A stretch of DNA of 64,000 nucleotides from Symbiodinium natans. Lineage: Eukaryota; Sar; Dinophyceae; Suessiales; Symbiodiniaceae. The position numbers and the translations under genes were made by a program. This document shows positions 26,073-60,300 of this stretch, piece by piece. The DNA lies in assembly GCA_905221605.1 (NCBI GenBank), contig CAJNDS010000724.1, positions 724,001-788,000 of the forward strand, written 5' to 3'. The notes under the pieces were generated by a model. That model was not told the origin of the DNA. It made no database searches and saw only the letters and a list, made by a program, of their open reading frames with translations. How positions within the stretch are numbered: position 1 is the first letter of the stretch; each line of letters begins with the position of its first letter.

Positions 26073-26079
26073 TAGAGAG

Positions 26080-27576: not shown

Positions 27577-27580
27577 CCAG

Positions 27581-28472: not shown

Positions 28473-28499
28473 GTGACTGCTGTGTTTGGGGTATTCCTT

Positions 28500-29870: not shown

Positions 29871-29873
29871 TTG

Positions 29874-29993: not shown

Positions 29994-30001
29994 TAGTTTT
30001 G

Positions 30002-30093
30002 GTTGGTTAGCAGGGAATGAGGGAATTAGGGTTTAGGGTTCAGTGTTTAGGGTATAGGGTGCCTTATTCCCCCATTCCCTACTAGCCAACAGT
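30002..30093. mobile_element. Inverted-repeat element, family A, carrying a TTTAGGG tract
   Basis: Arms GTTGGTTAGCAGGGAATGAG and CCCATTCCCTACTAGCCAAC are inverted copies. The loop, about 35 bp, is made of TTTAGGG-like units, absent from the copy at 4646-4756. Confidence 0.7.
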
Positions 30094-32330: not shown

Positions 32331-33300
32331 TGTAGGTTTAGGGTTTGGGGTTGGGGGTTTGAGGGCTGATTAGGGTCTAGGGGTGAGTTTTTCCGGGCTG
32401 GGGTTTAGTGTTTAAGGTTTAGGGTTCAGGGTTCGTCATACCCCTTCAACCAGGTTCCAGGCAATTCTGTTCTTATCGTCTTTGTTTTCCCATCTCCTCA
32501 GGACTGAGGCGTTGTTCGTATGCTGAGACCGATCCTAATAAACCCTAAACCCTGAATCCTAAACCCTAAACCCTAAACCCTAAACCCTAAAGGCTTACGG
32601 GAAGTCACGCAAGCCCCAAAGGCCCCAGACCCTGAAGCACTTGGGTCCTTTGGGGGGGTAGCCTTGGCAAGATTGGAGTAGCAAGGGCGGGGCTGCAGGG
32701 TTTAGGGTTTAGGGTTTAGGGTTTAGGGTTTAGGGTTTAGGGTTTAGGGTTTAGGGTTTAAGGTTTAGGGGTTGATCCCTAGTGGGGATTACTTTTTTTC
32801 GTGTTTGGTTACAGTAGGCTCGCTGCCAGTACTCCCTAAACTAAGGCCCCCAGGTCCCAAGGTCCCAAATGCCAAACCCTAATCTCCGGCAGCTTTAAGA
32901 CATTGCAGGGTTTATTAGGGTTTAGGGTTTAGGGTTTTGGGTTTAGCAGCCATGTGGTGCGTACAGCTCTTTGTTGGGTTTGTCGTGTTTATGGGGCTGT
33001 TGGGGCTTATAGTGTTTGTAGGGTGTGTAGGGGTTATCGTGTTGTTTGAGTGTATGTTTACAGGGTGTTCATGGGTGTTGTCTGTATGGTGTTGAAAGGG
33101 CTTACAGGATTTGTGGCGTTATAGTGTTTTTGGTGATCATAGGGTTGCAGGGCCTATAGGTTCGTAGGGTTGACAGGACTTACATGGCGTATTCAGGGCA
33201 AATAGGGTTTGCAGGATATGGCTTGAGGAGTCTTTAGGGCTTCACCGAGGCCTAACCCAAAGTCCCCAGGGCACTACAGGACCGGGTTGTCTACGTTTTT
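32331..33300. other. Gene-free stretch with arrays
   Basis: A TTTAGGG array lies at about 32697-32768 and a CCCTAAA tract at 32545-32592. Degenerate TAGGGTTTGCAGG-type units fill 33000-33240. Confidence 0.45.
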
Positions 33301-33329
33301 GAGTTCCATGATGGGCGGTGGTTCTGCAG

Positions 33330-33378
33330 GAAGTGCTGTATGCGAGGCCCCCTGAATCTCTGTCGGCGCTGGCAAACT
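33330..33378 (+). CDS. Possible exon just upstream of the PPR gene
   Basis: The acceptor TTCTGCAG is followed by a frame reading EVLYARPPESLSALAN with a GT (or an earlier GC) donor. It may be part of the PPR gene, but its phase does not match the next exon without a further piece. Confidence 0.35.
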
Positions 33379-33432
33379 GTTTGTAGGAGGTCGGTAGCTG
33401 CTTACGACTTTGCTGTGTTGATTGTGAAGGTA

Positions 33433-33525
33433 AAGGCCCTAAACCCTAAAACCTAAACCCTAAACCCTAAACCCTAAACCCTAAACCCTAAACCCTAAAC
33501 CCTAAACCCTAAACCCTAAACCCTA
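33433..33525. repeat. CCCTAAA array
   Basis: About 12 CCCTAAA units end directly at a family-D repeat. Confidence 0.9.
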
Positions 33526-33656
33526 CATGGGCCCTTAATACGGTCCCTTACCACCTTTCAAGGGTTCTGCTGTATGGGCCCTTGGGTTTATAGGGTATGT
33601 CAGGGGTATATACGGGGCCCTTCTTTAAGGGCCCATACGAAGAATCCATGCAACTA
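33526..33656. mobile_element. Dispersed repeat family D, abutting a PPR exon
   Basis: Inverted ends ATGGGCCCTTAATACGG and GGGCCCATACGAAGAATCCATGCAACTA flank GGGTATGTCAGGGGTATATA. The copy stops within a few bases of the splice acceptor at 33662-33663. Confidence 0.5.
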
Positions 33657-33663
33657 CCCGCAG

Positions 33664-33766
33664 AAACTCGCGCAGGCACGGATGATCAGCAACTTCGGGA
33701 AAGACGGGAACCTGCACGCTGCGCTCGATATCTTTGAAAAGTTGAAGGACGCGCAGGGTCAGCAGC
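33664..33766 (+). CDS. PPR gene exon 1 of those seen
   Basis: Acceptor CCCGCAG, donor C|GTAAGC. Encodes KLAQARMISNFGKDGNLHAA and LDIFEKLKDAQ, a typical second half of a PPR repeat. The residue phase (1) does not match the next exon, so a small exon is probably missing between them, or the donor lies elsewhere. Confidence 0.75.
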
Positions 33767-36700
33767 GTAAGCCGAAGCCCTTCAAAGTCAATACCCGCTG
33801 TTGATTCACCTGAACCCTTAAACCGTCGGTAATTACTACCCCCCCCCCAAGTATAAGTCTACTTCTAGCCCAGCTACTATGTAGGGATGATAAGTGCCCA
33901 TGACCCTCCAAGAAAGCCGTGGCAGGAGTGTGGCGCGGTGACCGTCGTGGTGCCTTGTTTTGCAGGTCGTCTTCGTGCTTGTTCGGTTAGAACTTCTTCG
34001 CTGAGGCTTCATGGATCCCTACTGCCAGCCAGTATAGCCAGTAGTTCCGACAATAGATGGTCAGTTCTCTAAATTTGGTTCCCTTCTTGGGTGCCCTAAG
34101 GAAGAGGGGGCTGCCTTATAACAAGGACCCCCCCAAAAGGACTGCAATGTAAGAGAAGTCGGCAATATATGTCTTCTCTGGCAGAGTGGCCTCGTTTGGG
34201 GAGATGACATGAGACTCTGTCTGAAAGAGGAACAGCGCATTGGCAGGTTCAAGCCCGGGTTAGAACTAGATAGAAAGCTTTCTAGAACAAAGAGCTGCTC
34301 AAAATGGGTCATGTCTACAACCCCTTAAACCTCTTAAATCCTGATAAGCCCTTAAACCATTAAAATCCCTTAGACCCTTATAGGCCCTTAAGCCCTGAAA
34401 CACAGCAAGGTCTACACTTCACTCAACCCCTTAGGCCCTTATAGGCCCCGAAGCCCTGCAACCCCTAAACCCTAACCCTTAAACCCTAAACCCTAAACCC
34501 CAAACCCTAAACCCTAAACCCCAAACCCTAAACCCTAAACCACACAGCAAGGTCTACAATTGCCTGCTGGACGCCTGCATCGAGTGCCGCGACCTGCCAC
34601 GGGCGCTGGACTTCTTCCAGGTGCGAGCTTGATGCGGCATCGGGAGGGTTTTGGGGTTTGGGGTTTAGGGTTTAGGGTTTAGGGTTTAAATAGGGTTCCT
34701 AAAGCCCTGAACCCTGAGTCCCTAAACCCCAGCGCTTTCAGGGGCTTAGGGGTTTAGGGCTTGGGGTGTAGATAGGCTTCCTGATGCTGAGACGCCGGGG
34801 TCCGAGCATAAGGGTTTAGGGTTTAGGGTTTTTTGCCTTTGAAATTGATGGGTTGTTCATTTGCAAGACACCCCTCACACACGCACAGAGGGCATATACG
34901 CCACCCTAGGCAGACTCTAAATCCTAAGCCCTGAACCCTGTGGACCTTAAACCCTAGATCCGGAACTTTACAAACTTAACCCCTAGACCCTGTTCACCCT
35001 GAACCCTAGCCCCCATCAAGTTGAGGGTATAGGAAGTGTGTGTGGCAAGCCTCTGGAGGAGGGCTCTGGGCACTTGAGATTTCGGTAGTTCTCCAAGCTA
35101 AGGGTCCCTTGTGGGGTCCTTCTTTGAAAGGGTGCCGTATATGGGCATTTCCCAAAATGGGCGGTACCCCTTATATACCCCAAATAGAGCAGAGTCCCCC
35201 TAAAGGGAGGACCCCCCAAAAGGGTAACCCTCTGGACACCCCCATATAACACCCCAAAAGGGGCCCGAATTTCGGGAACTACCCCCTAAACCCTAAACCC
35301 TAAACCCTAAACCCTAAACCCTAAACCCTAAACCCTAAACCCTAAACCCCATCACCAGAGCCAGAGTTGAGCCAGGAGATGAAGGCGGCGTCCTTGGCCG
35401 ATGTCGTCAGCTACAACACCATCATGAAAGGCACGGGCCCAAAGATATCATAGGGGTCGGCATAATTGGTGGTGGTATTCCCTTGTGGCCCCTTTGTAGT
35501 CATGCTAGAAATCTCCCCCCCCCCAACAAACAAGTCCTATTAAAACTATTCGCAGTATTCAGGCCCCTGTCTTACCTCTTGTCGTCCTTGGTTGGAGTTT
35601 GAGGAACTCTCTGCTTGATGCTTGTATATATCTGCAGCCTTCCCCCCAAATCTACGGCCTAGACACCCAAACCCCAAACCCGCAACCCTAAACCCTGAAC
35701 CCTGAACCCTAAACCCTAAGTCCAAAACCCAGCCCTAAATCCGATGCAGCGTACGCCCTACAAGGGCGCACGCTGGTCCAGGAGCTTACAAGCAAGCAGG
35801 GGACCCCCCTGTTCTAAGTACTTGGAGGTTCAGGGGACCTGTAACCCTCCTTATAATGTACACTGATAAGCCCAGTGAGTCCCCTAAGTCCGCTAAGTAG
35901 GGTGCATGTGGACGCATAATTGGGGTTATAAGTTATAAGTAACCATGAACCTCCAAGAAGTTATAAGTAGAGTTATAGGGACCCTAAATATTGGGTTACA
36001 AAGATCCTAACTCAGGCTAGAAGTCCCTAAACTATAGGTAGTAAGGGGGCCCCTCCTTGTACGTAAGAGTCATTGAGTCTCGAGGCTTGCGCAGCCCTTT
36101 ATTGCGGTCTTGGGCCTGGGTCCTAAACCCTAAACCCTAAACCCTAAACCCTAAACCCTAAACCCTAAACCCTAAACCCTAGGGTGCAGCCTTTTAGGTT
36201 TTATGTTTCAGGTTTCAGGGTGGAGGCTCTAGGTGTTGCCCTGAACCCCAAACCCTTTCAACCCTTTCAACCCTTTCAAACCCCAAACCCTGAAACCTAA
36301 ACCCTAAACCCTAAACCCTAAACCCTAAACCCTAAACCCTAAACCCTAAACCCTAAACCCTAAACCCTAAACCCTAAACCCTAAACCCTAAACCCTAAAC
36401 CCTAAACATAAACCCTATAAACCCTTCGACCCGAAACCCTTCAAGCATGATGCACATCCGACGCGTGAGGCCACCTCGGCGTCGGCGACACCCAGGCAGC
36501 ACACCGCATCTTCAGCACTCCGGCATACTAGCATCCCCGGGTTGATTTGATTGGGATGTTAAAAGCCGCAAAATCCTAGACCTTAAGCCCTAAACCCTAA
36601 ATTCCAAACCCAAGACCCAAACCCTTGCCGTGCGGGTTTTGGGCTGTAGGTTTCGGGGTTGGGCGGGTTTTTGCATTTTCGGTGCTCGAGGCTTTGTAGG

Positions 36701-39700
36701 CTTCTGAGGCGGGGCTGTACTTTGCCCGACTCACACGTTTGTGTTTAAGATGCCGGGTGCCCAGGTGACATGACTGCTGCTGGTCTGATGCCAAGCCGAG
36801 CGACTTGCTGGCAGCGTATACTAAACACTAAACCCTTAAACCCTAAACCCTAAACCCGACACCCCTAAACCCTAAACCTTAAACCCTAAACCCTAAACCC
36901 TACACCCAGCCACCCAGAAGTAACACACCCTTAGCTGCTGCAGACTCAGCGCACCGAAGCCTTAATCCCCGAACTCGACAGAGCCTAAGCCTGTCCGATA
37001 GAGAGCAGCCGTGTGGTTGCAAGAGTTCCTTCTTGCCAGGTAGGCTACTTGGGGTTTAGGATTTAGGGTTTAGGATTTAGGGTTTAGGGTTTAGGGTTTA
37101 GGGTTTAGGATTTAGGGTTTAGGGATTAGGGTTTCAGGGCTTCAGAGGGTTTAAGCCAACCAGGCTGGGGACTTTTTGTTCAGATCATGGCGAGTAGCCG
37201 GCTCAAGGACGATACAAGATTCGCCCAAATGGCACCCAAAACGGGTTTTAGGGACAAGGGCTGAAGGGGGGTGAGGGTTTAGGGTTTAGGGGTTTAGGGT
37301 TTGGGGGTTTAGGGTTTAGGGTTTAGGGTTTAGGGTTTAGGGTGAGTGGCCGGTGATGTGAAGCTCGCTGAGGTGACCTACCATGCCCTCCTGAATGCCA
37401 TCATCCAGCCGCTCGAAGTTGCATGTGGAGCTGGTAGTGTCACTGCACCCTAAACCCTAAACCCTAAACCCCAAACACTAAACCCTAAACCCTAAACCCT
37501 AAACCCTAAACCCTAAACCCTAAACCCTAAACCCTAAACCCTAAACCTACATGTTCATCGTTGGATAGACGCCTGAACTTTCATCAAACATACTTCACCA
37601 CTACACGCCTGCAGGGTTCGAGCGGGCGAGGGGTTGGTTTATGGTTTAGGGCAAACCCCAAACCCTTAACTGAAGCCCAAACCCTCAACCCTAACCCCTA
37701 ACCCCACACCCGAAACTCTAAACCCTAAACCCTGAACCATACATGTACAGTAAACCCTCAGCCCTAATCCTGAAGCCCGACAACACGGACCAAGGAAGGG
37801 CGACCGCAGCGCTGCCTGGCGCTTGGTGAGCGCCCCTTGGCCCAGAACTTACTGTTGGTTAGCAGGGAATGGGTTTGGGGTTTAGGGGTTTAGGGTTTAG
37901 GATTTAGGGTTTAGGGTTTAGGGTTAAGGGTTTAATAGGGTGCCCTATATAATCCCTCAAAGGGGATATATATATATATAGGGGGGGGGTACCATATATA
38001 CATATACATATATATAGGGGGGGGATACAGGAAGATAGGGCACCTCATTCCCTCATCTTCCCTGCTAACCAACAATAAGAGAAGAGGTCTTCACGGGCTC
38101 CTGCGCCTCAAGGGTTCGGGCTTTCAAGCTGGGGCTTAGAAATTTAGCAAGTAGAAAGTTTAGGGTTTAGGTTTAGGGTTTAGGATTTAGGGTTTAGGGT
38201 TTAGGGTGTAGGGTCAAGGGTCTAGGGTTTAGGAAGCTTAGGAATTTAGGAAGCTTAGGACGCTCAGGCCGGAAAAATGGGGTGTTTCAACACTTCAAGA
38301 GACCCCTTAGTCGGCAAACCCTTGCATCCCTTGAACTCCTCCTGGGCAACAACCTACTTGGAGCTTCATGGGTACTTGTAACCCTGATCTGGGGGTTTGG
38401 GGTTTAGGGGGTTCATGGGTGCTTTTTGCCCCGAATTCCATGGGCGACGGCTGGGGTTTAGGGTTAGAACCCCCAATTTATAAGCCTACTATGGCCTACT
38501 TGGGGTACTTCGGGGTTACAAGTAGACTTAGAATTCGGGTTATGAGTGCCCTGAACCTCCAAGTGGGGGTGGGAGGTGAGCTCCCTATACTAAGAACCAG
38601 CCATTGGGACTAATAGACATGCCGAAGTCGTTGACTGGGGCTGTTCATGAACACTTGGAGTAAAACCAGCAGGCTGCAAGAACGGCAAACACAAAAAAGA
38701 AGACCCTACACCCCCAAACCCCGAAACCCTAAACCCTAAACCCCCTTTCAATGTTGTCGGCTTCTACGTGTCCCCGCATGTCCCCCCCGAAGCTTCGTGG
38801 GAAAGGACATGCAGAACAAGGGCATCGGTGCCAACACCATCACTTGCACCATCCTCCTGCGCCTCGGATGGAAAAGCGCTCTGAACCCTAAACCCTGAGC
38901 CCTAAACCTTTAACTAAACCCTAAACCCTACAGTTAGGCTTTTGCCGCCTAAACCCTGGAGTCCCTAAGGCCGCGAAGGTTTAGGGTTTCGGGTTTCGGG
39001 TTTAGGGTTTAGGGTTTAGGGGCAGCTATAGTCACCCCCGCCAGGAAGAGCATCTCCGGACGCTCCCACGGTACTGAGATGCTGCTTCCGGGCCGCAGAT
39101 GGGGTTGGATTTAGGGTTTAGGGTTTAGGGTTTGGGGTTGGGGGTTTAGGGTTTAGGGTTTAGGGTTTAGGTTGACAGTCCGAGGCTCCAGTTCTTGGGG
39201 TCTTCCGAAATTCGGGGGTACCTGATTGAGGTCCTGATGATAAGGGAATCCTACTATTTGGTGGGTTTGGAGTAGGGGTCCCTGATTTTTTGCAAACTCT
39301 CATTTCGGCGGGTTTAGAGTTTTGGGTCCAGGACAAGGATCATGGTACTAAAGTTACTAAAGGAGGGACCCTGATAAAGGGACCTGAGGGGTTCTTTGGG
39401 TTATTTGGGGGCTACTTAGGTACATTATATTAGGGGCTCTATAATGATAAGGTACGTCTAGGGGTTATATAGGGGAATCAGATTATGGGTCCCTTCTAGG
39501 GGTCTCTCCTTGTACCCCTTAGAAGGAAGATCTTGGAGCTCGGAGATGCCAGCGGCCTGCCCATGGATGAGGCGCCTTCGTTTTACACCTCCTGCCCAAG
39601 GTTTAGGGTTTAATTAGGGTTCATGGTTGACTACAGGGTGGGGCCCCCTAGTTATAAGTAGAGTTATAAGGGCCCTAAATTGGGTTATAAGGACCCTAAG

Positions 39701-51700: not shown

Positions 51701-54700
51701 CCTCACATATCTTTGTGGTACTTTACTGTAACTTTATATCCTTACCCTTTTTTGGGTTTATTGGGTTTCCTATTAAGGCAGCTAAAAGTTTAATTTATAG
51801 CTACCCTCCTGAGTGCAGCCAAGATATAATATAGTATGCGGATCTTCGATATAGGGGTTTTCCGGTCCTAGGGGTACCCTGTTTATTTTTTGTTTTTATG
51901 TTTTTTTGGGGGGGGGGCCCTTCAAGGGGATTTTGTTCTATTTGGGGTATAAAAGGGGTGCCCCTATTTTGGGAAATTCCCATATAGTGTATAGTACGCG
52001 GATGTTTGACACACTTCCCGAAAGACTTGATCAAACAGGAGCTAAACTAACCACGCTGCAGCACAAACCTCGAGAGAACCTTTTAAACCCGCAACCTTAA
52101 GCTACTAAGCACTCCAGCCTCAACCCTTAAACCCTAAACGCCCTGAACCTCGTTAGGGGGCTGTGAGTTGTCTGGAGATGCCAACGTGTGCTGCGAGGTT
52201 CTCTACAACAGTCTGCTGGCGGCCCGTCTGCAGACGAAGCCCTACAAACTACGACCCCCCCCCCCTAAAAAAATAAAGATATTCTTCCTTGTAAGGGGAA
52301 TATATGGATGATTATCTTTAATAGTTGTTTTTTGGGGGGGGCTTCTTGAGCATAGTAATAAGCCCTCAACCCTGAAGCCTCTCGTTGGCTCCGCGCCCGG
52401 CCCTGGCTTAGGGCCATGGATGATCATGCTACCTTAGGGTTGTTAGACTGCAACATTTCGAGTTCCCGCTGTTTGTACCTAAATTTTCGTATGTTTATGA
52501 GCAATAAGCGAAGGCTTGATACCAAGAACCCGATGGGGTCCCCACTTTGGCAAGGGATTCTTGTATCCCCTATTAGAATCTCATTAAGGACTGTTCGTAC
52601 AAGGGGGAACATCCCTAAACCCTAAACCCCAAAAAACCCACCCCCTAAACCCTAAACCCTAAACCCTAAACCCTAAACCCTAAACCCTAAACCCTAAACC
52701 CTAAACCCTAAACCCAATTAGAATCCCTATGAAGGACTGTTAGTATAAGGGGGAACATCCTAAGGTCTACACTTGTTGCAGATTGGTAGACGATGCTCTA
52801 GCTCAACCTTGCCGAGCTGTCGTGTTTTTCACACTGGGCTTCCTTGGGAAAGGTTTTAGGGTTTAGGGTTTAGGGGTTAGGGTTTAGGGTTTAGGGTTTA
52901 GGGTTAGACATCTGAGGACGGCTGTGCCAAGCAGTCGCGCGTGGACGAAGCGCTGTCCCTGCTGGAGGAGATGAAGACGCAGGGGGTCGCACACCAAGTG
53001 TTTGGTCCCTTCGGATGTAAACCCTAACCCCTAAACCCCAAACCCTCCAGGGGGATGACTGGATGGAACCCTTAACCCCAAACCCCACAATCCATAAACC
53101 CCCAAAAACCCGAACCCTAAAAACCCAAAACCCCCAAAATCCCTGCTTGAGCCACCGTTTAGGGTTTAGGGTTTAGGGATCAGGGTTTAGGGTGCCTTTC
53201 AGGTCGTGCCTTCAAACTACACGCTCAGCATCCTCTGCAAACTGCTCGGCCGCGCCAGGCGCAAGACCGGCAGGGGCAGGGCTTCCCCTAAAAACCCAAC
53301 AAACAAATCCTAAAGGCCCTTAAGTGAAAAGCCTTTCCTCCCTAAAACAACCCAAAAAGCCCCTAACCAAAAAGAACTCTCCCAAGGGTTTTGGGTTTAG
53401 GGTTTAGGGTCTAGGGTATGGGTTGGGGCTTAGCTAGGGTTTAGGGTTTAGGGTTTAGGGTTTAGGGTTTAGGGTTGAGGGTTGAGGGTTGAGGGTTGAA
53501 AGGGTTTAGGGCTTAGGGTCCCTGATCACCATGGGCAGGCTTTCCCGGGCCCCTCAAGGGCGCACCTGGACTTTCCATTGTAGTTCCTTTGGCGGGTCCA
53601 GGGGTCAGGGTTTGCAGGGTTTTTACTTGCATTGTTTTTTTTGTTAAGGATTTCGGATTTAGGTGTTATTTTAGGATTTAGGCTCGAGTCCTTAAATGGG
53701 GTTTCGGGTTTCTTTTAGGGTTTTTAGGGTATAGGGTTTAGGGTGCACAGTTTACAGAAGTTGGGGGTAGTTTTGGTGCGTTTTTTGATTCAAGGTTTGC
53801 AGGGTTTGGGTTTCGGGTTCGGGTTCATGGTTACAAGTTTGGGAGAGGGATGACACAACAGCAGCCAAGCAGCCCAAAAAGGTGACGACGGTTGGGGTAA
53901 CATCCCTCGACTTCCCTTGTGGCGGCAGCAGTGCCCTGCAACGGTCATCTCTGCGTCCTCCCGCACGGAACCCTACATGCAGCTGTACAAGTCTTACACG
54001 AGGCGGTGGCAAGTAGGGCTACTGCACTTGCAGCCCACTAGAACCGTAATCCAGGTACAGGGTGGGGCCCCCTTACTATACTAACTGTAGTTAAGGGACT
54101 TATAACCTAACTTAGGGTCCTTATAACCCAATTTAGGGCCCTTATAACTCTACTTATAACTAGGGGGCCTCACCCTGTACCCCCCCAAGATGAAGCCTTG
54201 AGAGCAAGCTGGGGGGTGCGGGCCATCACCCCTCCCGAAGCTGACTGTCTCACCAGACTGAGACCATGCCCATGCAGCAGATTTTAGCACGTGAGAATCC
54301 TACTCAAGGTACCGATATCCCTAACTCTTACGTCTACCTTTATGTCCCCTGTTTGTCGTACTTTTATGTCTCTACTTGATATCGACCCACCCACCTTCGA
54401 GTTTTTCGTTAGGCCCTTAAAGGAGGGGTGTTCATGGGGGTAGGTATTTAGGGAACCTAGAGAATAGCGGGGTCCGTATCAGGGAACCTTGGGTTATGTA
54501 CCCCCCCTTGAAACCCCTTCCCCTAAGGACTCTACATAAACCCTAAACCCTAAACCCTAAACCCTAAACCCTAAACTCCACATGGAGTCGTATTGAATTC
54601 GTAGAGTAGACGTGGGGCTGTGGAACGTGGCCAGGCGACTGGATCAGGCCTGTAGCCTGGTGCAGAGCTTCACGCAGGAGCTGCGGTTTGGGGAACCGCT

Positions 54701-57700
54701 CTTGGAATTTCGTGGCCCAATTACTGTACTTACAATTTTAGGGCTTAGGGTCTAGGGTTGAGGGTATGCGTTCTTATACCCGCAATTTGCACTGATACAA
54801 GCTTGGGGTTAAGGATTTAGGGTTTGTAGGGTTTAGCTTGACCTTGGTTGTGGGGGAAAGCAAGCCTAAGCCCAACTTCAACAATGCCCCGTGCCTTATA
54901 ACGTTGTGCACGGGGTTAGGCTTCCCTAGGAAGCTCCACTAAACACAATGAGTTTAGGGTTTAGGGTCTAGCGTGTAGGGTTTAGGGTTTAGGGTTTAGG
55001 GTTTAGGGTTTAGGGTTTAGGGTTTAGGGTTTAGGGTTTAGGGTTTAGGGGTGACCCTAAACCCTAAACCCTCAACCGGAAATCTTGAGACCGCCACGTC
55101 CAAGCGACGCCAGGAGTACGGCTTCAAGGCCAACATCCAGGCAGGGGCCCTGGGGTTTCATGGCTGTAGGGTTTAGGCTTTAGGGCTAGGGTTTAGGGTT
55201 AGGGTTTAGGATTTAGGGTTTAGGGTTTATGGTTTAGGGTTTAGGGCTAGGGTTTAGAGTCTTAGGGTTTAGTGCTAGAGGACGTTCTAGGACCCGAAGG
55301 GGGGGCTTCTGGGTTCATTATTTTGGGAGATCTCAGGGATACTAAGCCCCAAAGTGGGCTCTCGTCTCTCGAAGCCTATCCCCACTACCTTAAACCCCTA
55401 AACTAGCTTCAGGTTTCAGGTTTTAGGGGTTTAGGGCCTAGGGTTTAGGGTTTAGGGTTTGGGGTTTAGGGTTTAGGGTTTAGCTACCCTAACTCCTAAA
55501 CCCCAAGACCTTAAACCTTGCACCCCCAAAGGCCTTGAAGCCCCAAGCCACACAACATCCTGAAACCCTAAGTCCTGAAACCCGAAGCTCCAACCCATTC
55601 GGGTTTAGGGTTTAGGGTTTAGGGTTTAGGGTTTAGGGTTTAGGGTTTAGGGTTTAGGGTTTAGGGTTTAGGTTTAGGGTTTAGGATTGAGGCAAAAACG
55701 GTGTGATCTTGCTGGTTCTTAGCCGGGCTTATGGTTTGGAGTTCGTAAGTTTGTGGGGTTAAGAACCCTAAGCCTTAAACCCTAAACCCTAAACCCTAAG
55801 TTTGGGGTTAAGGGTTTGGGGGTTAGGGTTTAGGGGTTTTTGGGTTTGGAGCTTAGCGCTTAGGCTTGCGTATGTGGATTCCATGGTGTTGGGTGAGGTT
55901 TTGGGGTTCAGGGCTTCGAGAAGCATAGGTAGGAATTAAGCCTCAGCCCTTTTTCCCATGAAACCCTAAACCCTAAACCCTAGATCCTACTCTTGCCAAG
56001 CCAGGTCTACACCTGCCTCATGCAAGCATGCATCCACAATCGCCAGTGCCACCGAGTGCTGACCCTTCACGACCAGGCCATTAGCGAATTAGCGTTCCAG
56101 CGTGGAGTTCGTCTCTGAAGCCCTAGACCACCTTTTCATACACCCTAATCCCTACAATCCTTGAAGGCCCTCAGCCCAAAGACCCTAAACTCTAATCCAT
56201 AGAAAAGCCTTAACAACCCTAATGCCTGAAGCCTTAAGCCGTAAGAACTCCGTAAACCCTCAAGCCCCAATCCCGAAACCCTAATCCCCAAATCCCCAAA
56301 ACAACCCTAAACTCTAAACCCTAGAACTTCCCATCAAGCTCTCAACCTTTTTGGGGGGCCGGGTTTAGGGTTTAGGGTTTTGGGTTTAGGGTTTTGGGGG
56401 TGCGCGCAGTTCTTTAACTTCTGTACCCTTTAAGGTAAATGGGGGGGGGGGGGGGGGGGAGCATCTGTTGCCAGGTGGTGAAGGGCGGAAGCTGCTCCCC
56501 TGACGAGAAGACATACACGGCACCGACTCCCAGCGGGGGTGGGGGGGGGGGGGCTGAGGGTTTAGGGTTTAGGGTTCAGGGTTCAGGGTTCAGGGTTCAG
56601 GGTTTAGGGTTTAGGGTTTAGGGGGCTTGGGGGCTTGGGGGTGCTTACGGGGGGTTACAGGGATTAAGGGGGCTTTAGGGGTTTTCAGATTTTGAGGTGA
56701 GAGTCCTAGGTTGAACCTAGAGACCCATGAAAAGGGAAACGACCTCAATCCATCGGTCTATTTGCCTTAAAGGGTGTTTTGGATTTAGGGTTTGAGGGTT
56801 TAGGGGCTTAGTTCCTCTATGGGTCTCTCTCGGCTTCAGGGCGTTGTACTGTGCCTGTGCTTGTGCTTCTTTTCGGGCTTGCTGCCTGCGCCCCAAAAGC
56901 GCACCCTGCAGCCGACTGTCTTGAGGTTTCTTGAACCCCGTTTTAGAGTTTAGGGTTTAGGGTTTAGGGTTTAGGTTTAGGGTCTAGGGTATAGGGTTTA
57001 AGGTTTAAGGTTTGAGGGTTCAGGGGCTTAGTTCCTCTATGGGTCTCTCTCGGCTTCAGGGCTTCAGGGCGTTGTACTGTGTCCGTGCTTCTTTTCGGGC
57101 TTGCTGCCTGCGCCCCAAAAGCGCACCCTGCAGCCGACTGTCTTGAGGTTTCTTGAACCCCATTTTAGAGTTTAGGGTTTAGGGTTTAGGGTTTAGGGTT
57201 AGGGTTTAGGGTTTAGGGTTTAGGTTTAGGGTCTAGGGTCTAGGGTTTAGGGTTTAGGGTTTGAGGGTTTAGGGGCTTAGTTCCTCTATGGGTCTCTCTC
57301 GGCTTCAGGGCTTCAGGGCGTTGTACTGTGTCTGTGCTTCTTTTCGGGCTTGCTGCCTGCGCCCCAAAAGCGCACCCTGCAGCCGACTGTCTTGAGGTTT
57401 CTTGAACCCCGTTTTAGAGTTTAGGGTTTAGGGTTTAGGGTTTAGGGTTTAGGGAACCCAACCAAGGTCCCCCTCCCCCCTGCTCCCCTCAACCATCGAG
57501 ATGAACAAAAATAGCATCGGGTGCTTCGAAGCTGTGAAGCAACGCACAAGCCAAGCATCCCAAGACATGAAGCACCAAAAGGCCTGCAAGAGCAACGAGC
57601 GTGAGAAGTAACTTTGTGGAAAGCACGAAGCCGAAACGCCAAGAACACGAACAGACCGAAACCATAAAATGCCAAAAGCCCTTCCGAAAGCGAAGGAAGC

Positions 57701-60300
57701 TGCGAAATGTGCAAAGACGCGGGTAAACCGACACAGAGAGCAGAAAACAAACGATGAAGCAAAGAATTGCAGAAGTGTATAATACAGTCCGCAATTGTGT
57801 GCTGGAGAAAGGGAGGTACTGTCGCAAATACCGAGGAAAGACCCGAAGAAATGGAGGATTTGCCGAACTTCCGCCGCATTCCAACTACAGGGGGGAGAGG
57901 AAACCCTAAACCCTAAAGCCACCATGAACCACCACGGGGGGCAAAGTGAAATCCCTAATTAGGCCCTCCAGCCTAACCTTAACAGCACCATGAACAACAG
58001 ACCATGAATTACAGGGGGGGAACCCTAAACCCAAATACTAAACAAAACCATGAACCACAGGAGGTGGGGGGATACTATTGCGGGGATGAGGCGGGGGGGG
58101 GGGGGGGGGGTAGCGTGAATGCTGGTGCACATAACAAATACCCTATAACCCCTAAAGACCTCTAAACCTAAACCCTAAACCCTGAACTTCCTTCATTCGT
58201 GCATTCACTGCGTTCATTCATTGATGTCAATATATACCTTATAAACCCTAAACCCTAAACCCTAAACCCTAAACCCTAAACCCTAAACCCTAAGCCCAAG
58301 GTCATGCTCCGGGGCTGTCTCCAGTCCGGCCTCAACGACAAGGCGCTGGCCGTGGCGCGGTGCGCCTACCACCTGCCGGAACCCTGGGTTGGCAGGGTTT
58401 AGGGTTTAGGGTTTAGGGTTTAGGGTTTAGGGTTTATAGGGTTTTTGCAGGGTTGTTGTAGGGTTTTTTGTAGGGTTCTTGTAGGGTATTTGTAGGGTTC
58501 TGGGTGACTTTTGTAGGGTTTATAAGGCTCATGGGACTTTTGTCGGCTTCGTGTAGGGTTTGTCAATTTAAGTGTAGGGTTTTTGTCGGATCTTTGTAGG
58601 GCTTCTGTAGGATTTTGTAGTGTGTTGTGGCGTTTGTGTAAGGTTTTTTTTTCGTCGGATTTTGCCAACCCTAACCTTGTGCGGATGAGGGCTTGAAGGT
58701 TTGCGGCCCCCCCCAAGCTTTCTGCAGGGTTTTGGGATGCTTTCGGTCACGACGATGGGGGTTCGGGTTAAGGTTTTAGATCGGGGCCTTTTTTTGGGGT
58801 TTCTGGCGTTTAGGGGTCTGAAAGGTTGGATTTGTAGAGGTTTGGGGTTTGTATTGCTAAGGGTCCTTACGGGAGGGGTTCGCGGGGGTAAGTTAGGGAA
58901 CCTTACAAAAGCTTCGGGAACCTTAGGGAGTAGTACGGAGTACTAGGGAACCATGGGTTACACACACACCCCTAAACCCCAAACCCCTAAACCCCAAAAC
59001 CCCCAAAACCCCCAAACCCCTAAACCCCTAAACCCCTAAACCCCTAAACCCTAAACACCAGCCTTATAATTACGCACCCTACAGTAGTGTTTAGGGATTT
59101 CGGGTTTAAACCCAAAACAGTAGCCTTGTAATTACGCACCCTACAGGTATCAGGGTGGGGCCCCCTTACTAAACTAACTGTAGTTAAGGGACTTATAACC
59201 TAACTTAGGGTCCTTATAACCCAATTTAGGGCCCTTATAACTCTACTTAGAACTAGGGGGCCCCACCCTGAGAGTGTTTAGGGATTTTGGGGGTTTGGAG
59301 CCGAGCCGATCTCCTGCCAAACCCAAGGCAGGGCCACTGCTTGCAAGAGACGCAGGGCGCGGCTCCAGGAGCCGGCGGCCCAGCGCTACCCAAAAAACCC
59401 CCCTTAGGATTTAGGGTTTAGGGTTTAGGGTTTAGGGTTTAGGGTTTAGGTTTTTGGGTTTAGGGTTTAGGGTTTAGGGATATATAGTGGTTTTTTTGTT
59501 TAGGGTTTAGGGTTTAGGGATATATAGTGGTTTTTTTGTTTAGGGTTTGGGGTTTATGGTTTAGGGTGCAGGGTCTAATTAGGGTCCTTGCGAGGTTTGC
59601 AGGGTGGTTCTACGGGTTTCACATACGTGTACTAGGTAAAGGGAAACTAGTACTAACCTGCAGGCAAAGAGAGTCCCGGCCCTAAACCGGAAACCCCTGA
59701 GCCTTAAACCCTAATCCCCACCCCTCAACCCCTAACCCCCTGAAACCCCTAATCCCTGTACCCTTGAAAGCTCGAAGCACACCCCCGAAACCCTGAGAAC
59801 CAAGATACCTACACCCTAAGCCCTGACCCCTAACCCCTAAACCCTAAGCCCTAAACCCTAAACCCTAAGCCCCAAACCTTAAACCCTAAACCCTAAACCC
59901 TAAACCCTAAACCCTGAGCCCCAACTCCACCAGGTCGAAGCACAGTGCCTGGAAGAGCTGCTGGGTGCTCTCGGCCCCTGCCACCAACGCGAGGTCCTCA
60001 TGAAGGCGGGTCGTGCTACTCAGAAGGGTTTAGGGTTAGGGTTAAGGGTTGAGGGGGCGTAGGACACTATGAATGCCTAAACGCCCTATCGAAGACCTAA
60101 ACCCTATATAGCAACGGCGGGGGTTCGGGTTTAGGACCCTAAACTCTCAACCGCATCTCGGAGCCGGGCATCCCGCGACAGACCCTAAACCCTAAACCCT
60201 CAACCCTCAACCCTCAACCCTAAACCCTAAACCCTGAACCCTAAACCCTCTCCAGGATCTCTACGAGCACCACGGCCTGTCAGTGTCTGCTCCTTCGCAG
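33664..60300 (+). CDS. Pentatricopeptide-repeat (PPR) protein gene, at least 33 microexons, 5' and 3' ends not fixed
   Basis: PPR proteins are strings of ~35-residue helical pairs that bind RNA, usually in mitochondria or plastids. Exons of 21-103 nt spread over 26.6 kb give about 1.7 kb of coding sequence (roughly 570 residues, enough for 14-16 PPR repeats). Diagnostic repeat cores are VYNCLLDACIECRDLPRALD, VSYNTIMKA, PTYGSMMKAFGQAHDVPR, VIYSTIVKGF, IVTYSTIVK, VLYNSLLDGCAKQ and VYTCLMQACIHNRQ. The coding sequence is accounted for by joins such as LLE|DMRDSD, NTIT|YNTML, ALA|RCGMM, TPDE|VLYNSLL|DGCAKQ and HDQ|VVKGG, where the split repeats are restored across introns. Nearly all acceptors are AG followed by G. 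Donors are GC in about 18 cases, GT in about 10, GA in three. Junctions after the exons at 33664, 35750 and 58301 are unresolved and may hide further exons. The start codon and any targeting peptide were not found; a stop at 61010-61012 is a candidate end. Intron arrays make assembly collapse or misjoin possible. Confidence 0.85.
34552..34620 (+). CDS. PPR gene exon 2
   Basis: 69 nt, phase 0, acceptor GCAAG|G, donor CAG|GTGCGA. Encodes VYNCLLDACIECRDLPRALD and FFQ. CCCTAAA units precede it and TTTAGGG units follow it. Confidence 0.9.
35100..35262. mobile_element. Dispersed repeat family E (CCCAAAATGGGCGGTACCCC)
   Basis: GGGCATTTCCCAAAATGGGC, TATACCCCAAATAGAGCAGA and CCCCCTAAAGGGAGG-like words recur in inverse orientation at 51895-51985 (CTATTTGGGGTATAAAAGGG, CCTATTTTGGGAAATTCCC). 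Confidence 0.5.
35284..35349. repeat. CCCTAAA array
   Basis: Nine clean CCCTAAA units lie near the acceptor end of the intron before exon 3; TTTAGGG units lie near the donor end of the same intron (34655-34690). Confidence 0.85.
35376..35430 (+). CDS. PPR gene exon 3
   Basis: 55 nt, acceptor AGCCAG|G, GC donor (AAAG|GCACGG). Encodes EMKAASLADVVSYNTIMK and joins exon 2 as LDFF-QEMKAA, a standard repeat boundary. Confidence 0.88.
35750..35802 (+). CDS. PPR gene exon 4
   Basis: Acceptor ATGCAG|C. Its first two bases complete an Ala codon split from exon 3, then YALQGRTLVQELTSKQ follows. The 3' edge is uncertain because no GT or GC follows; a GA donor near 35802 is possible. Confidence 0.75.
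35819..35958. mobile_element. Inverted-repeat element, family B (TACTTGGAGGTTCAGGGG)
   Basis: Left arm ACTTGGAGGTTCAGGGG, right arm AACCATGAACCTCCAAG. Family members: 10328 (one end), 38355-38564, 49647-49777, 61729-61917 and 63117-63260. No coding capacity. Confidence 0.65.
35961..36062 (+). mobile_element. 120 bp MITE, degenerate copy
   Basis: TTATAAGTAGAGTTATAGGG and GTAAGGGGGCCCCTCCTTGT match the 120 bp family, but the left terminal repeat is missing. It sits directly against a family-B element. Confidence 0.65.
36290..36416. repeat. CCCTAAA array
   Basis: About 17 CCCTAAA units follow a short CCCTTTCAA variant block at 36255-36280. Confidence 0.9.
36420..37340. other. Intron sequence, no supported exon
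   Basis: Arrays lie at 36830-36905 (CCCTAAA), 37050-37140 and 37275-37345 (TTTAGGG). A stretch near 36470-36515 resembles GDTQAAHRIF, but the PPR gene does not need it. Confidence 0.4.
37364..37410 (+). CDS. PPR gene exon 5
   Basis: Acceptor GTGAAG|C, GC donor (CAGCC|GCTCG). Encodes LAEVTYHALLNAIIQ, the first helix of a repeat. The end was chosen to keep phase with exon 6. Confidence 0.75.
37448..37548. repeat. CCCTAAA array
   Basis: About 14 units with two variant units on the left. Confidence 0.9.
37795..37825 (+). CDS. PPR gene exon 6
   Basis: 31 nt, donor TTG|GTGAGC. Encodes KGDRSAAWRL, the second helix of the repeat begun in exon 5. An alternative acceptor at 37797-37798 would give 27 nt. 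Confidence 0.7.
37851..38076. mobile_element. Inverted-repeat element, family A, enlarged by TTTAGGG and a TA/poly-G block
   Basis: Arms ACTGTTGGTTAGCAGGGAAT and TTCCCTGCTAACCAACAA delimit 226 bp, twice the plain copy. The extra sequence is a TTTAGGG tract (37872-37930) next to the left arm, plus two TATATA/GGGGGGGG blocks with GGTACC near the centre. Confidence 0.7.
38355..38564. mobile_element. Inverted-repeat element, family B
   Basis: Left arm TACTTGGAGCTTCATGGGTA, right arm GCCCTGAACCTCCAAGT. The interior includes TTTAGGG-like units. Confidence 0.6.
38806..38858 (+). CDS. PPR gene exon 7
   Basis: Acceptor GGAAAG|G, GC donor (CTCCT|GCGCC). Encodes DMQNKGIGANTITCTIL, linking the end of one repeat to the start of the next. 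Confidence 0.85.
39526..39571 (+). CDS. PPR gene exon 8
   Basis: GC donor (GATGAG|GCGCC). Encodes KILELGDASGLPMDE. The acceptor could be 39521-39522 or 39524-39525; both keep phase with exon 7. Confidence 0.75.
39634..39753 (+). mobile_element. 120 bp MITE, copy 3 (forward)
   Basis: Perfect terminal repeats, TA on both flanks (CTA before, TAA after), and an interior almost identical to copy 1. Confidence 0.88.
40130..40328. repeat. Array of CCAAACCCT followed by CCCTAAA
   Basis: About 12 units of a 9-base variant CCAAACCCT switch abruptly to about ten 7-base CCCTAAA units. The frame through it encodes alternating repeats (QTLQTL, SKPSKP) and is not a gene. Confidence 0.9.
40344..40396 (+). 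CDS. PPR gene exon 9
   Basis: 53 nt, acceptor ATGGAG|G, GC donor (AAACT|GCACC). Encodes VLFGAFADASIRCGNLK. Exons 8 and 9 join as LPMDE-VLFGAFAD in phase 0. Confidence 0.85.
40672..40785. repeat. Tandem duplication of an A-rich ~55 bp unit
   Basis: Two and a half copies of AAGGAGACATAGAAAGCAAA followed by AACAACATATAA-like sequence. Confidence 0.75.
40849..40870 (+). CDS. PPR gene exon 10 (22 nt)
   Basis: A 22 nt microexon with acceptor CTAAG|G and donor AAG|GTGACC. Its first base completes the Leu codon from exon 9, then LWDRFKK. Confidence 0.75.
41485..41553 (+). CDS. PPR gene exon 11
   Basis: GC donor (CCACGC|GCAGG). Encodes QEVSGPTYGSMMKAFGQAHD and VPR. The acceptor at 41483-41484 or 41489-41490 both keep the frame; the second fits the AG|G rule. 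Confidence 0.88.
42252..42287 (+). CDS. PPR gene exon 12 (36 nt)
   Basis: Acceptor ACCGAG|G, donor AAG|GTGTCT. Encodes VKDLWNHMSACK. Joined to exon 11 as DVPR-VKDLWNHM it completes a canonical second helix. Confidence 0.85.
42909..42947 (+). CDS. PPR gene exon 13 (39 nt)
   Basis: Acceptor GAGCCAG|G, GC donor (GTGGAG|GCATCG). Encodes VKLTAVTLGCMVE. Confidence 0.87.
43311..43352 (+). CDS. PPR gene exon 14 (42 nt)
   Basis: Acceptor GCAGAG|G, donor ATC|GTGCTG. Encodes ALVANNNVGEAWQI, joined to exon 13 as GCMVE-ALVANNN. Confidence 0.87.
43883..43976. mobile_element. Inverted-repeat element, family A variant
   Basis: Arms CTGGTTCTTCGTAGGGAATG and CCCTACGAAGAACCAG are inverted. The GGGAATGAGGGAATGGGGTA core matches family A but the tips differ, so this is a subfamily. 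Confidence 0.6.
44013..44038 (+). CDS. PPR gene exon 15
   Basis: Acceptor CGTTAG|G. Encodes VNDIWAKD with a GC donor at 44039 that keeps phase with the segment at 44306. A longer version to 44045 with a GT donor would instead join exon 17 directly. Confidence 0.65.
44160..44242. mobile_element. Dispersed repeat family C
   Basis: AAAGTCCTTAATAGGGATTA faces TAATCCCCATTAAGGACTCT, followed by GGGGGAACATCCCAAG. Confidence 0.55.
44306..44384 (+). CDS. PPR gene exon 16, linker segment
   Basis: Acceptor AGCAG|T, donor ATT|GTCGGT. Encodes GNFKEPEPEIPQLKPKPAVY and DGKRNI. It is proline- and charge-rich, not a PPR helix, so it would be a linker loop inside a repeat or an optional exon. Confidence 0.55.
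45292..45360 (+). CDS. PPR gene exon 17 (69 nt)
   Basis: Acceptor CCCAAG|G, GC donor (GACAAG|GCGCC). Encodes DLVNTVIYSTIVKGFTMSRQ and HDK, a full first helix. Confidence 0.9.
45376..45528. mobile_element. Dispersed repeat family F with an inserted TTTAGGG tract
   Basis: TGGTGCTTTACTGTAA and, after the insert, TAGATCCTTAGCCTTTTTGG match uninterrupted copies at 51711-51830 and 63297-63412. About 54 bp of TTTAGGG/TTTCGGG units (45395-45448) replace three bases of the plain copies. Confidence 0.75.
46002..46028 (+). CDS. PPR gene exon 18 (27 nt)
   Basis: Microexon VVAIYREMK, acceptor GCCAG|G, donor AAG|GTGCGG. It completes the second helix begun in exon 17. Confidence 0.85.
46115..46185. repeat. 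(TA)n and (CA)n microsatellite
   Basis: TATATATATACACACACACA, then a second TATATA tract and TGTGTGTG, symmetric about 46150. Confidence 0.85.
46463..46491 (+). CDS. PPR gene exon 19 (29 nt)
   Basis: Encodes ERGIACNTI plus two bases of a Thr codon; acceptor GCGCAG|G, donor CAC|GTGCCC. The split Thr codon is completed by the first base of exon 20. Confidence 0.85.
46798..46908. repeat. Inverted repeat TACTTGGGCCCCAAAGT with TTTAGGG in the loop
   Basis: Arms ATACTTGGGCCCCAAAGT and ACTTTGGGGCCCAAGTAT are perfect inverted copies. The loop is mostly TTTAGGG-like units. Confidence 0.7.
47101..47129 (+). CDS. PPR gene exon 20 (29 nt)
   Basis: Acceptor CATGAG|G, GC donor (GGCCC|GCCTG). Encodes YNTMLNALA plus one base of an Arg codon. 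Confidence 0.85.
47148..47200. repeat. (GAGC)n and (GA)n microsatellite
   Basis: Four GAGC units run into a GA tract. Confidence 0.9.
47655..47786. repeat. CCCTAAA array
   Basis: About 18 perfect CCCTAAA units, the longest uninterrupted 7-base array in the window. Confidence 0.95.
47815..47987 (+). CDS. Coding-like segment inside a PPR intron
   Basis: After AG at 47813-47814 a frame reads NTHGIDCVYEHAVYQDKYPR, KGHECTRGMRNVVRSFIQEK and LLSSDPASYLDFVGPP, then TGA at 47985-47987. Composition is protein-like and it is not repeat-derived. The flanking PPR exons already join without it, so it would be an exon of a nested gene, an alternative exon or a gene fragment. No family recognised. Confidence 0.45.
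48290..48676. repeat. Long G-rich low-complexity block
   Basis: About 350 bp of G runs broken by single T, rarely A or C, a strong candidate for G-quadruplex formation. Gly- or Pro-rich frames on both strands are artefacts. A C-rich block (48740-48775) follows after 65 bp. Confidence 0.92.
48931..48968 (+). CDS. PPR gene exon 21 (38 nt)
   Basis: Acceptor CCCCAG|G, GA donor (CTCGAG|GAGCC). The first two bases complete the Arg codon, then CGMMHEVPQLLE. The GA donor is required to keep phase with exon 22. Confidence 0.83.
49350..49412 (+). CDS. PPR gene exon 22 (63 nt)
   Basis: Acceptor CGCCAG|G, GC donor (GTCAAG|GCGCAG). Encodes DMRDSDPPVQPDIVTYSTIV plus K, one of the clearest PPR segments in the gene. 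Confidence 0.92.
49647..49777. mobile_element. Inverted-repeat element, family B (plain copy)
   Basis: Left arm CACTTGGAGGTTCATGGTAC, right arm TAACCATGAACCTTCAAG. The interior has CTTATAAGTAGGGTTATAAG words that resemble the interior of the 120 bp MITE. No telomere-type insert. Confidence 0.7.
49920..50840. other. Intron sequence with diverged telomere-type units
   Basis: CCCTAAA tract at 49930-49975 and 50080-50160, then a drifting CCTTAAACCTTGAA domain to 50280. TTTAGGG lies at 50490-50527. A 60 bp unit with CTACCCGGTTACCGCTAAGC is duplicated at 50527-50625. No exon seen. Confidence 0.45.
51033..51125 (+). CDS. PPR gene exon 23 (93 nt)
   Basis: Acceptor GGGAGAG|T, GC donor (GACGAG|GCGCT). 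Encodes LYGHDQTLTAK and DKAFALLKEMRKSNAVTPDE. The acceptor is one of the few not followed by G; a second AAG|G acceptor at 51064-51065 would give a 60 nt exon. Confidence 0.83.
51711..51830. mobile_element. Dispersed repeat family F (uninterrupted copy)
   Basis: CTTTGTGGTACTTTACTGTA, then TTATTGGGTTTCCTATTAAG and AGCTACCCTCCTGAGTGCAG. Matches 63297-63412 closely. Confidence 0.7.
52198..52218 (+). CDS. PPR gene exon 24 (21 nt)
   Basis: A seven-codon microexon VLYNSLL, acceptor TGCGAG|G, GC donor (CTGCTG|GCGGC). It bridges TPDE and DGCAKQ exactly, in phase 0 on both sides. Confidence 0.8.
52571..52764. repeat. CCCTAAA array flanked by two direct copies of a family-C end
   Basis: TATTAGAATCTCATTAAGGA ... 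GGGGGAACATCCC stands before the array (52614-52716), and AATTAGAATCCCTATGAAGG ... GGGGGAACATCC after it, in the same orientation. Confidence 0.75.
52917..52985 (+). CDS. PPR gene exon 25 (69 nt)
   Basis: Acceptor TCTGAG|G, donor CAGGGG|GTCGCA. Encodes DGCAKQSRVDEALSLLEEMK and TQG. Confidence 0.92.
53203..53258 (+). CDS. PPR gene exon 26
   Basis: Acceptor TTTCAG|G, GC donor (CGCCAG|GCGCA). Encodes VVPSNYTLSILCKLLGRA plus two bases of an Arg codon. Confidence 0.9.
53882..54056 (+). CDS. Coding-like segment inside a PPR intron
   Basis: A frame open across this stretch reads DDGWGNIPRLPLWRQQCPAT, VISASSRTEPYMQLYKSYTR and RWQVGLLHLQ. The PPR gene does not need it (exons 26 and 27 join directly). 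Weak on its own; it could be a fragment or a nested exon. Confidence 0.3.
54058..54177 (-). mobile_element. 120 bp MITE, copy 4 (reverse)
   Basis: 120 bp, TA on both flanks (GTA before, TAC after). One substitution in the right terminal repeat (GGCCTCACCCTG). Confidence 0.87.
54635..54692 (+). CDS. PPR gene exon 27
   Basis: Acceptor GGCCAG|G, GA donor (TTTGGG|GAACCG). The first base completes the Arg codon, then RLDQACSLVQSFTQELRFG. Confidence 0.85.
54950..55076. repeat. Head-to-head TTTAGGG / CCCTAAA array
   Basis: About 12 TTTAGGG units turn into CCCTAAA units at GGGGTGACCCTAAA (55046-55060), giving an imperfect palindrome just before exon 28. Confidence 0.85.
55114..55140 (+). CDS. PPR gene exon 28 (27 nt)
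   Basis: Microexon EYGFKANIQ, acceptor CGCCAG|G, GC donor (ATCCAG|GCAGGG). Confidence 0.83.
55598..55690. repeat. TTTAGGG array
   Basis: About 12 units, one shortened to TTAGGG plus T. Confidence 0.9.
56005..56076 (+). CDS. PPR gene exon 29 (72 nt)
   Basis: Acceptor AGCCAG|G, GC donor (GACCAG|GCCATT). Encodes VYTCLMQACIHNRQCHRVLT and LHDQ. Confidence 0.92.
56475..56519 (+). CDS. PPR gene exon 30 (45 nt)
   Basis: Acceptor TTGCCAG|G, GC donor (TACACG|GCACCG). Encodes VVKGGSCSPDEKTYT. It lies between two poly-G runs. Confidence 0.87.
56794..57440. repeat. Triplicated ~150 bp unit separated by TTTAGGG tracts
   Basis: Copies start at 56794, 57014 and 57263 with GGGGCTTAGTTCCTC and run through CTGCAGCCGACTGTCTTGAG to TTTTAGAG followed by TTTAGGG units. 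The copies are nearly identical, but the TTTAGGG tract between them differs in length (spacing 220 versus 249). Confidence 0.88.
57455..57910. other. Repeat-free island in a PPR intron, purine-rich on the plus strand
   Basis: All three minus-strand frames stay open for 130-158 codons. Their products are rich in Phe, Ser, Cys and Leu (YTLLQFFASSFVFC-like), which is what a purine-rich opposite strand gives by chance. Plus-strand frames read MNKNSIGCFEAVKQRTSQ and HKMPKALPKAKEAAK between stops. I cannot decide whether it is coding. Confidence 0.4.
58200..58297. repeat. CCCTAAA array before exon 31
   Basis: Seven clean units end nine bases before the acceptor CCCAAG. TTTAGGG units begin within 20 bp after the exon. 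Confidence 0.85.
58301..58378 (+). CDS. PPR gene exon 31 (78 nt)
   Basis: Acceptor CCCAAG|G, GA donor (CTGCCG|GAACCC). Encodes VMLRGCLQSGLNDKALAVAR and CAYHLP. An alternative end is CAG at 58393-58395 next to the TTTAGGG array. Confidence 0.87.
58436..58660. repeat. Degenerate TAGGGTTTTTGT units
   Basis: Expanded-T variants of the telomere unit (TGTAGGGTTTTTTG, TGTAGGGTTCT) of 11-16 bp. Confidence 0.6.
59151..59270 (-). mobile_element. 120 bp MITE, copy 5 (reverse)
   Basis: Perfect 16 bp terminal repeats. Flanks are TAT and AGA, so no TA duplication remains. It directly follows a second copy of TTACGCACCCTACAG (59067 and 59133). Confidence 0.86.
59477..59564. repeat. Tandem duplication, ~49 bp
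   Basis: Two copies of GGGATATATAGTGGTTTTTT with TTTAGGG units between them. Confidence 0.8.
59934..60005 (+). CDS. PPR gene exon 32 (72 nt)
   Basis: Acceptor CACCAG|G, GC donor (ATGAAG|GCGGG). Encodes VEAQCLEELLGALG and PCHQREVLMK. A linker exon may be missing before it. Confidence 0.78.
60256..60300 (+). CDS. PPR gene exon 33 (45 nt)
   Basis: Acceptor CTCCAG|G, GC donor (TCGCAG|GCGCAA). Encodes DLYEHHGLSVSAPSQ, outside the repeat region proper. Confidence 0.75.

Follow-up and report, generated by a model that had tools for sequence, protein, structure and literature searches.

The window, by which we mean the whole 64,000-nucleotide stretch of DNA analysed here, carries on its forward strand the core of a PPR gene, which extends over 33673-60300 and consists of 37 collinear exons, in phase with one another, and 36 introns. 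Thirty-six exons were found with a spliced aligner, which compares a protein profile with DNA, allows introns to split codons, and accepts GT, GC, or GA donors and AG acceptors; one exon was assigned by eye. The profile, of 720 positions, was derived from an alignment of 61 among the 120 listed homologs of a first query, a translation of 465 aa joined by eye from the forward strand. This query matched 1162 proteins at an E value of 1e-3 or better (120 listed; 7995 candidates scored), with P0001 from Effrenium voratum as the best match and MMETSP transcript proteins among the matches listed. Exons E1 to E12 lie, in order, at 33673-33747, 34154-34180, 34552-34620, 35376-35430, 36470-36514, 36765-36799, 37373-37407, 37795-37831, 38806-38858, 39045-39083, 39526-39571, and 40344-40396; the weakest assignment is E2, which falls in a variable linker and has an AG|A acceptor. 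They are followed by E13 to E24 at 40849-40897, 41491-41553, 42252-42287, 42909-42947, 43311-43352, 44013-44045, 45292-45360, 46002-46028 (E20, 27 nt), 46463-46491, 47101-47129, 48931-48968, and 49350-49412, and by E25 to E35 at 50005-50028 (E25, 24 nt), 51066-51125, 52198-52218 (E27, 21 nt, VLYNSLL), 52917-52985, 53203-53258, 54635-54677, 55114-55140 (E31, 27 nt), 56005-56076, 56475-56519, 58301-58378, and 59332-59370. E36 (59934-60005) matches the profile up to 59978 and was prolonged by eye as far as a GC donor, and E37 (60256-60300, DLYEHHGLSVSAPSQ) was recognized by eye from the C-terminus of P0001.

The joined exons comprise 1737 nt and encode 579 aa without a stop codon, and the 36 exons found with the profile fill its positions 126-679 without a gap. 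Exon size ranges from 21 to 78 nt, with a median of 45 nt and a mean of 46.9 nt, and 93.5% of the core locus is intron. A preliminary description, made by reading the letters, had claimed a PPR gene split into at least 33 microexons with about 94% of the locus in introns, and both points are confirmed; its observation was right and somewhat understated. Three microexons that it named (52198-52218, 46002-46028, and 55114-55140) recur exactly in the spliced model. The fourth, placed at 40849-40870, has the same start and a different end, the model extending it to 40897.

The spliced-profile score on 33001-61000 was 901.6 bits for 36 exons, and harsher penalties in the aligner yielded 35 exons, of which 31 were identical. 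The reverse strand gave 24.9 bits, ten dinucleotide shuffles 20.5-24.9 bits, and the reversed profile 23.9 bits. Positions 1-28000 of the window gave 27.4 bits on the reverse strand and 42.9 bits on the forward strand, the latter because N-terminal exons of the same family lie at 12875-14522, as described below. Profiles in which repeat-sized blocks had been shuffled retained 155-265 bits in six trials because PPR repeats are alike. At the protein level, the true exon order scored 714 bits and ten exon-order shuffles 102-159 bits; the query of this homology test was a 577-residue version of the spliced protein, in which the last two exon ends were slightly off. That the locus is an assembly artefact, a product of chance matches, or a collection of PPR fragments unrelated to one another is thus extremely improbable, since the mutual similarity of the repeats accounts for the bits kept by block-shuffled profiles but not for the 902 bits in true order, shuffling the exons removes over three quarters of the score, and off-target scores stay within 20.5-27.4 bits except for the one control that contains exons of the same family.

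The spliced protein is 70.6% identical to P0001 over 494 aa. Three MMETSP transcript proteins (P0012, P0014, and P0017) match it at about 51% nearly end to end, over 582-583 positions with four gap openings each, so that the comparison of the joined translation with dinoflagellate transcript data, which had been suggested as a check, turned out positive. This collinear, full-length similarity to transcript-derived proteins assigns the product to a dinoflagellate PPR ortholog family. Pfam profiles PPR_2 (E 2e-85) and PPR (E 5.9e-68) matched the protein, and 14 repeat starts spaced by 33-38 residues were located with motifs picked by hand from the profile consensus. The protein itself is ordinary, as PPR proteins have the same tandem repeats at this spacing and match PPR_2. 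By analogy with such proteins, the product may bind organellar RNA. The introns, as had been noted from the letters, do not follow the repeat borders: only 8 of the 33 placed introns are within 2 aa of a border, and their positions within the 35-aa repeat look uniform (KS p=0.38).

Judged from its sequence, the locus is very probably one intact nuclear gene of a Symbiodiniaceae-like dinoflagellate, its product being a PPR protein that has about 14 repeats and is conserved among dinoflagellates. The MMETSP homologs are 715-718 aa long, and neither linker exons nor a last exon with the stop codon were found, so part of the window protein is missing from the model. The compact paralog described below, together with a stretch in intron 27 that by eye resembles a decayed PPR exon, could point to a copy that is dead or untranscribed, its exons being intact by chance. 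We consider this quite unlikely, as 1737 nt over 37 exons contain neither a stop nor a frameshift, all of the profile positions 126-679 are filled, and 33 of 35 acceptors retain the splice-site pattern in a model without preference. The decayed stretch itself (VYTCCRLVDDALAQPCRAVVFF, 52716-52854) lies between CCCTAAA and TTTAGGG arrays and is perhaps a dead exon copy.

Upstream of the core, three further exons were found on the forward strand. N1 (12875-12925, MTSSTSSVASLMYDVLE) starts with ATG, covers profile positions 1-17, and ends at a GC donor. N2 (14211-14239, ILHPLASEF) has a GA donor in the model. N3 (14439-14522, MFALAAIIYLLSTRAFLVPEKRKKKAG), the 3' end of which is uncertain, encodes a hydrophobic segment and resembles the N-termini of homologs, for example EAVMFAIAGLAYAVFAG in P0012. 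This hydrophobic N-terminus may act in targeting or anchoring. The N-terminal subprofile (positions 1-56) scored 42.5 bits at 12875-14522, its match ending at position 55; elsewhere it scored 16-21 bits on the other strand, in the remaining window, and on both strands of five chunks of 30 kb pieced together from other stretches of the genome. Two weaker pieces downstream of N3 in the profile alignment were not accepted as exons. With N1-N3 included, the gene extends over at least 47.4 kb and has about 40 exons averaging about 47 nt.

N1-N3 lie 19 kb upstream of E1, and in the spliced-profile alignment no convincing linker exon was seen in 14522-33673. The gap holds a conserved gene of one exon, also on the forward strand (30785-31798), and N1-N3 could accordingly be part of another copy or another gene, with the true start of the core gene nearer to 33.6 kb; a low-GC stretch at 20-24 kb in the gap points the same way. 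On the other side, the N-terminal subprofile matched nowhere else among the sequences tested, and the profile shows no PPR exon between N3 and E1. We therefore regard a separate origin of N1-N3 as unlikely, with some weight left to it, and retain these exons as the N-terminal part of the PPR gene. The protein of the 30785-31798 frame has hydrophobic stretches and matched 21 proteins, one of them its own; the identity was 62% to Durusdinium trenchii and 51% to S. microadriaticum, and no Pfam match was obtained at E 0.01. This gene seems to sit within the PPR gene's first long intron. The low-GC stretch (20001-24000) has a GC content of 0.38-0.40, compared with about 0.50-0.51 around it, ends in tandem repeats, and is perhaps an inserted element.

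The occurrence of only GT, GC, or GA donors and AG acceptors in the model is by construction, because no others are allowed. When the AG|G preference was removed and donor costs were made equal, 34 of the 36 exons were unchanged. In this model 33 of 35 acceptors read AG|G, the base rate within introns being 785 of 1673 AGs, and the donors were GC in 24, GT in 7, and GA in 4 of 35 cases. These are the donors and acceptors of dinoflagellate spliceosomal introns, and the reading as a gene needs only known dinoflagellate splicing; the introns would be removed by the spliceosome. Exon definition, which the preliminary description took to be required, would then have to act on exons of 21-30 nt. No classical branch point, branch-point consensus, or pyrimidine tract was visible in the PPR introns, and avoidance of AG upstream of the acceptor was looked for there and not seen. 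Rfam found nothing in the window at gathering thresholds.

A six-frame search of the genome (759,417,921 bases in 2543 contigs) with the spliced protein, here of 555 residues, listed 124 matches with an E value of 1e-3 or lower; among the matches listed (78 of 568 first-look candidates scored), none was on the contig of the window (C724, of which the window is 724001-788000), the locus of the query included. An ordinary search can thus miss this gene, as the preliminary description had anticipated, and that a conserved gene is unlisted by a homology search with its own protein bears on dinoflagellate gene counts. A genome search with PPR_2 gave at least 149 matches (150 of 2459 candidates scored), many of them in frames of 400-1000 codons. 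Many of the other PPR frames in the genome are accordingly long and uninterrupted, unlike the window gene. Six-frame searching with Pfam was also considered as a finder of multi-exon genes and set aside: Cpn60/TCP-1 gave 6 matches, and kinases gave 133, mostly in long open frames. We take it that short exons escape such a search. The kinase matches included an array of frames at C1019:16657-35637 with near-identical scores, many of them about 1.6 kb apart.

One match of the six-frame search with the spliced protein belongs to a paralog at C62:111072-117050, which reached 899.5 bits with 25 exons in 6 kb and shares 47.7% identity with the window protein across 524 positions. Its exons have a median of 69 nt and its introns a median of 110 nt, microexons of 24-33 nt occur here as well, the donors are GC in 9, GT in 8, and GA in 7 cases, and only 4 telomere heptamer hits fall within the gene. 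Small exons and non-GT donors are therefore common to both copies, whereas what distinguishes the window copy is its long introns, rich in telomere repeats. Over the span common to both, the window gene has 33 introns and the paralog 20. Of these 20, 2 coincide with an intron of the window gene in residue and phase; 4 do so in residue, where 1.4 would be expected (p=0.04), and 6 lie within one residue, where 4.0 would be expected (p=0.19). From this alignment, a few intron sites may be ancestral, and most are not common to both copies. Because the positions are mostly different, we infer that the split structure arose largely from intron gain, or from loss in the other copy. The introns of the window gene would then have grown through the accumulation of telomere repeats. 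Compact and inflated paralogs in one genome constitute a natural experiment on intron growth.

Exact telomere heptamers (TTTAGGG or CCCTAAA) make up 19.4% of the window and cover 19.3% of 33673-59978. We denote TTTAGGG arrays as F and CCCTAAA arrays as R, counting arrays from 14 bp. In the PPR introns, 27 F arrays were in the 5' half and 11 in the 3' half, whereas R arrays numbered 11 in the 5' half and 28 in the 3' half. A per-intron flip test gave p=0.0014, with 24 introns for the polarity and 8 of the 32 informative ones against it; when single heptamers were counted too, the test weakened to p=0.088. The same polarity appeared from the side of the exons. Where the nearest arrays within 250 nt were considered, R|F was found around 14 exons and F|R around 2 (40 exons, six without arrays), and the exon-flank polarity metric of 27 was reached by none of 499 circular shifts, in a test for which two 3' exons were still off by up to 4 nt. 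Close to the splice sites, within 70 nt, F outnumbered R 16 to 9 at donors (p=0.23) and R outnumbered F 19 to 8 at acceptors (p=0.05); with distances of 50-150 nt, p ranged over 0.23-0.71 at donors and 0.05-0.21 at acceptors. The CCCTAAA-exon-TTTAGGG orientation in the PPR locus is thus a bias, and it is a less expected feature than the small exons.

This polarity might be driven by splicing, either through hairpins at intron ends or through repeats that serve as splicing signals. Intron 3 (34621-35375), where TTTAGGG repeats are arrayed at the 5' end and CCCTAAA repeats at the 3' end, folds so that a terminal stem joins the two ends (MFE -331 kcal/mol, z -7.1 compared with 20 shuffles), and duplexes between the 5' and 3' ends of the same intron are slightly stronger than those with other introns (median -63.4 versus -58.2). 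However, pairing across exons is no weaker (median -66.0 over 35 exon gaps, compared with 36 introns), and the end-to-end distance in 32 folded introns was 12 compared with 14 in shuffles (p=0.68). Bridging of intron ends by hairpins as a general rule is therefore unsupported over the 36 introns. As to signals, 19 of 37 introns contain CTAAAC in their final 70 nt, compared with 105 of 552 body tiles, a set that includes the long gap between N3 and E1. This enrichment arises only through arrays: at array-free 3' ends CTAA[AC] was found in 0 of 17 cases, and YTNAY is rarer at 3' ends (9 of 37) than in body tiles (263 of 552). Telomere repeats were accordingly rejected as branch points, and with AG not avoided either, we hold an origin of the polarity in splicing to be rather doubtful.

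To look beyond the window we used 20 stretches of 10 kb taken at round coordinates, and hence non-random, on contigs known from the PPR_2 genome search. Three of them (L023, all N; L017, 2500 N; L014, 100 N) were left out of a set of 17, in which telomere heptamers make up a mean of 10.2%; the analysis of gaps used 19. One stretch without N (L022) has a GC content of 0.353, compared with 0.501 for the 17 stretches together. Gaps from R to a following F peaked at 80-160 nt, whereas those from F to a following R were broad (medians 124 and 270 nt; n=73 and 70; 19 stretches). For interiors of 60-200 nt, the median codon score was 10.2 between R and F (n=49) and 4.8 between F and R (n=18; p=4e-5), with R-R and F-F interiors intermediate at 6.4 and 5.5. 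The R-F interiors, which came from 12 of the 17 stretches, the other five giving none in the size range, also exceeded composition-kept shuffles. The codon score is weak on strand, finding the right one for 27 of the 36 PPR exons. In L016, seven coding-like pieces were seen by eye on the minus strand, three of them flanked as R-exon-F (array distances of 17/92, 39/63, and 7/5 nt), two as R-R, one as F-F, and one as F-R; three of the seven look WD40-like with weak Pfam support, the best Pfam WD40 match (E 0.005) falling below the cut-off.

Pooled sequence from elsewhere in the genome thus shows the same CCCTAAA-exon-TTTAGGG bias. Arrays around exons tend to point outward, which is the orientation of a linear fragment capped by telomeres at both ends. 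Direct junctions with a gap of less than 20 nt were few, 4 of 70 for F to R and 1 of 73 for R to F. It is conceivable, though on balance improbable, that introns originated or expanded through the healing of breaks, with telomeres added to both broken ends and the capped ends later rejoined. If true, intron sequence would have been made by telomerase on a genome-wide scale. If the exon-centred polarity holds genome-wide, it would point either to a mode of intron growth or to an aid to splicing without a classical branch point or pyrimidine tract, neither of which is described in the papers listed from the literature searched.

We also looked for an introner family. When the 36 introns were compared by blastn at E 1e-6 with the arrays masked, they had no sequence in common, so that such a family was rejected. 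The matches consisted of a 120-bp element in the interior of introns 11, 29, and 34 and two weaker pairs (introns 3 and 26, 19 and 26); the remaining ones fell within single introns. The 120-bp element (39632-39755, 54056-54179, and 59151-59270) is 97-99% identical, occurs in either orientation, appears self-complementary by eye, and is MITE-like and recent. In intron 33, three spaced copies of about 145 bp, 89-99% identical, lie at 56806-57418. Direct repeats at the intron ends, such as target-site duplications would leave, reached at least 5 nt in 8 of 36 introns (3.7 expected, p=0.015) and at least 4 nt in 12 (8.7 expected, p=0.08).

Among known systems, the closest are the intron-rich genes of Symbiodiniaceae. 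According to excerpts of the genome report (PMC5177918), S. microadriaticum has 21.8 exons per gene, with a mean exon of 109.5 bp, a mean intron of 505 bp, and GC, GT, and GA donors, and GC and GA donors account for 25-74% in Symbiodiniaceae, as far as the excerpted text of PMC11453091 goes. Many introns, the three donors, and introns of several hundred nt are common to the window gene and to the genes described in these excerpts, whereas the window exons, with a mean of 46.9 nt, are less than half as long as the S. microadriaticum mean and number 37-40. Since Symbiodiniaceae are known to have intron-dense genes, in which many short exons and GC donors are usual, the window gene stands at the extreme end of a familiar type. 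By their titles, no papers in the open-access literature searched deal with microexons of dinoflagellate genes. A further difference from S. microadriaticum genes is that a fifth of the window locus consists of telomere-like arrays. The introner elements described in S. microadriaticum (PMC9860276) and Amoebophrya (PMC7789003), as far as the available portions of those papers go, likewise have inverted repeats at intron ends, and the window introns show a weak excess of direct repeats at their boundaries; the inverted repeats of the window are, by contrast, telomere heptamers in tandem, varying in length and place, with no common family. No exon-flanking telomere arrays are described in the titles and opening lines of abstracts among the matches listed from the open-access literature searched. 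In mammals and other vertebrates, interstitial telomeric sequences are inserted at double-strand breaks, according to the excerpted parts of three reports (PMC7215372, PMC8537989, and PMC2246262). Telomere-type repeats away from chromosome ends are common to those sequences, as portrayed there, and to the present ones, which differ in making up about a tenth of the sampled sequence and in their tendency to be ordered by exon position. The polarised telomere-array introns are thus a new aspect of a known kind of gene, and the part most worth following.
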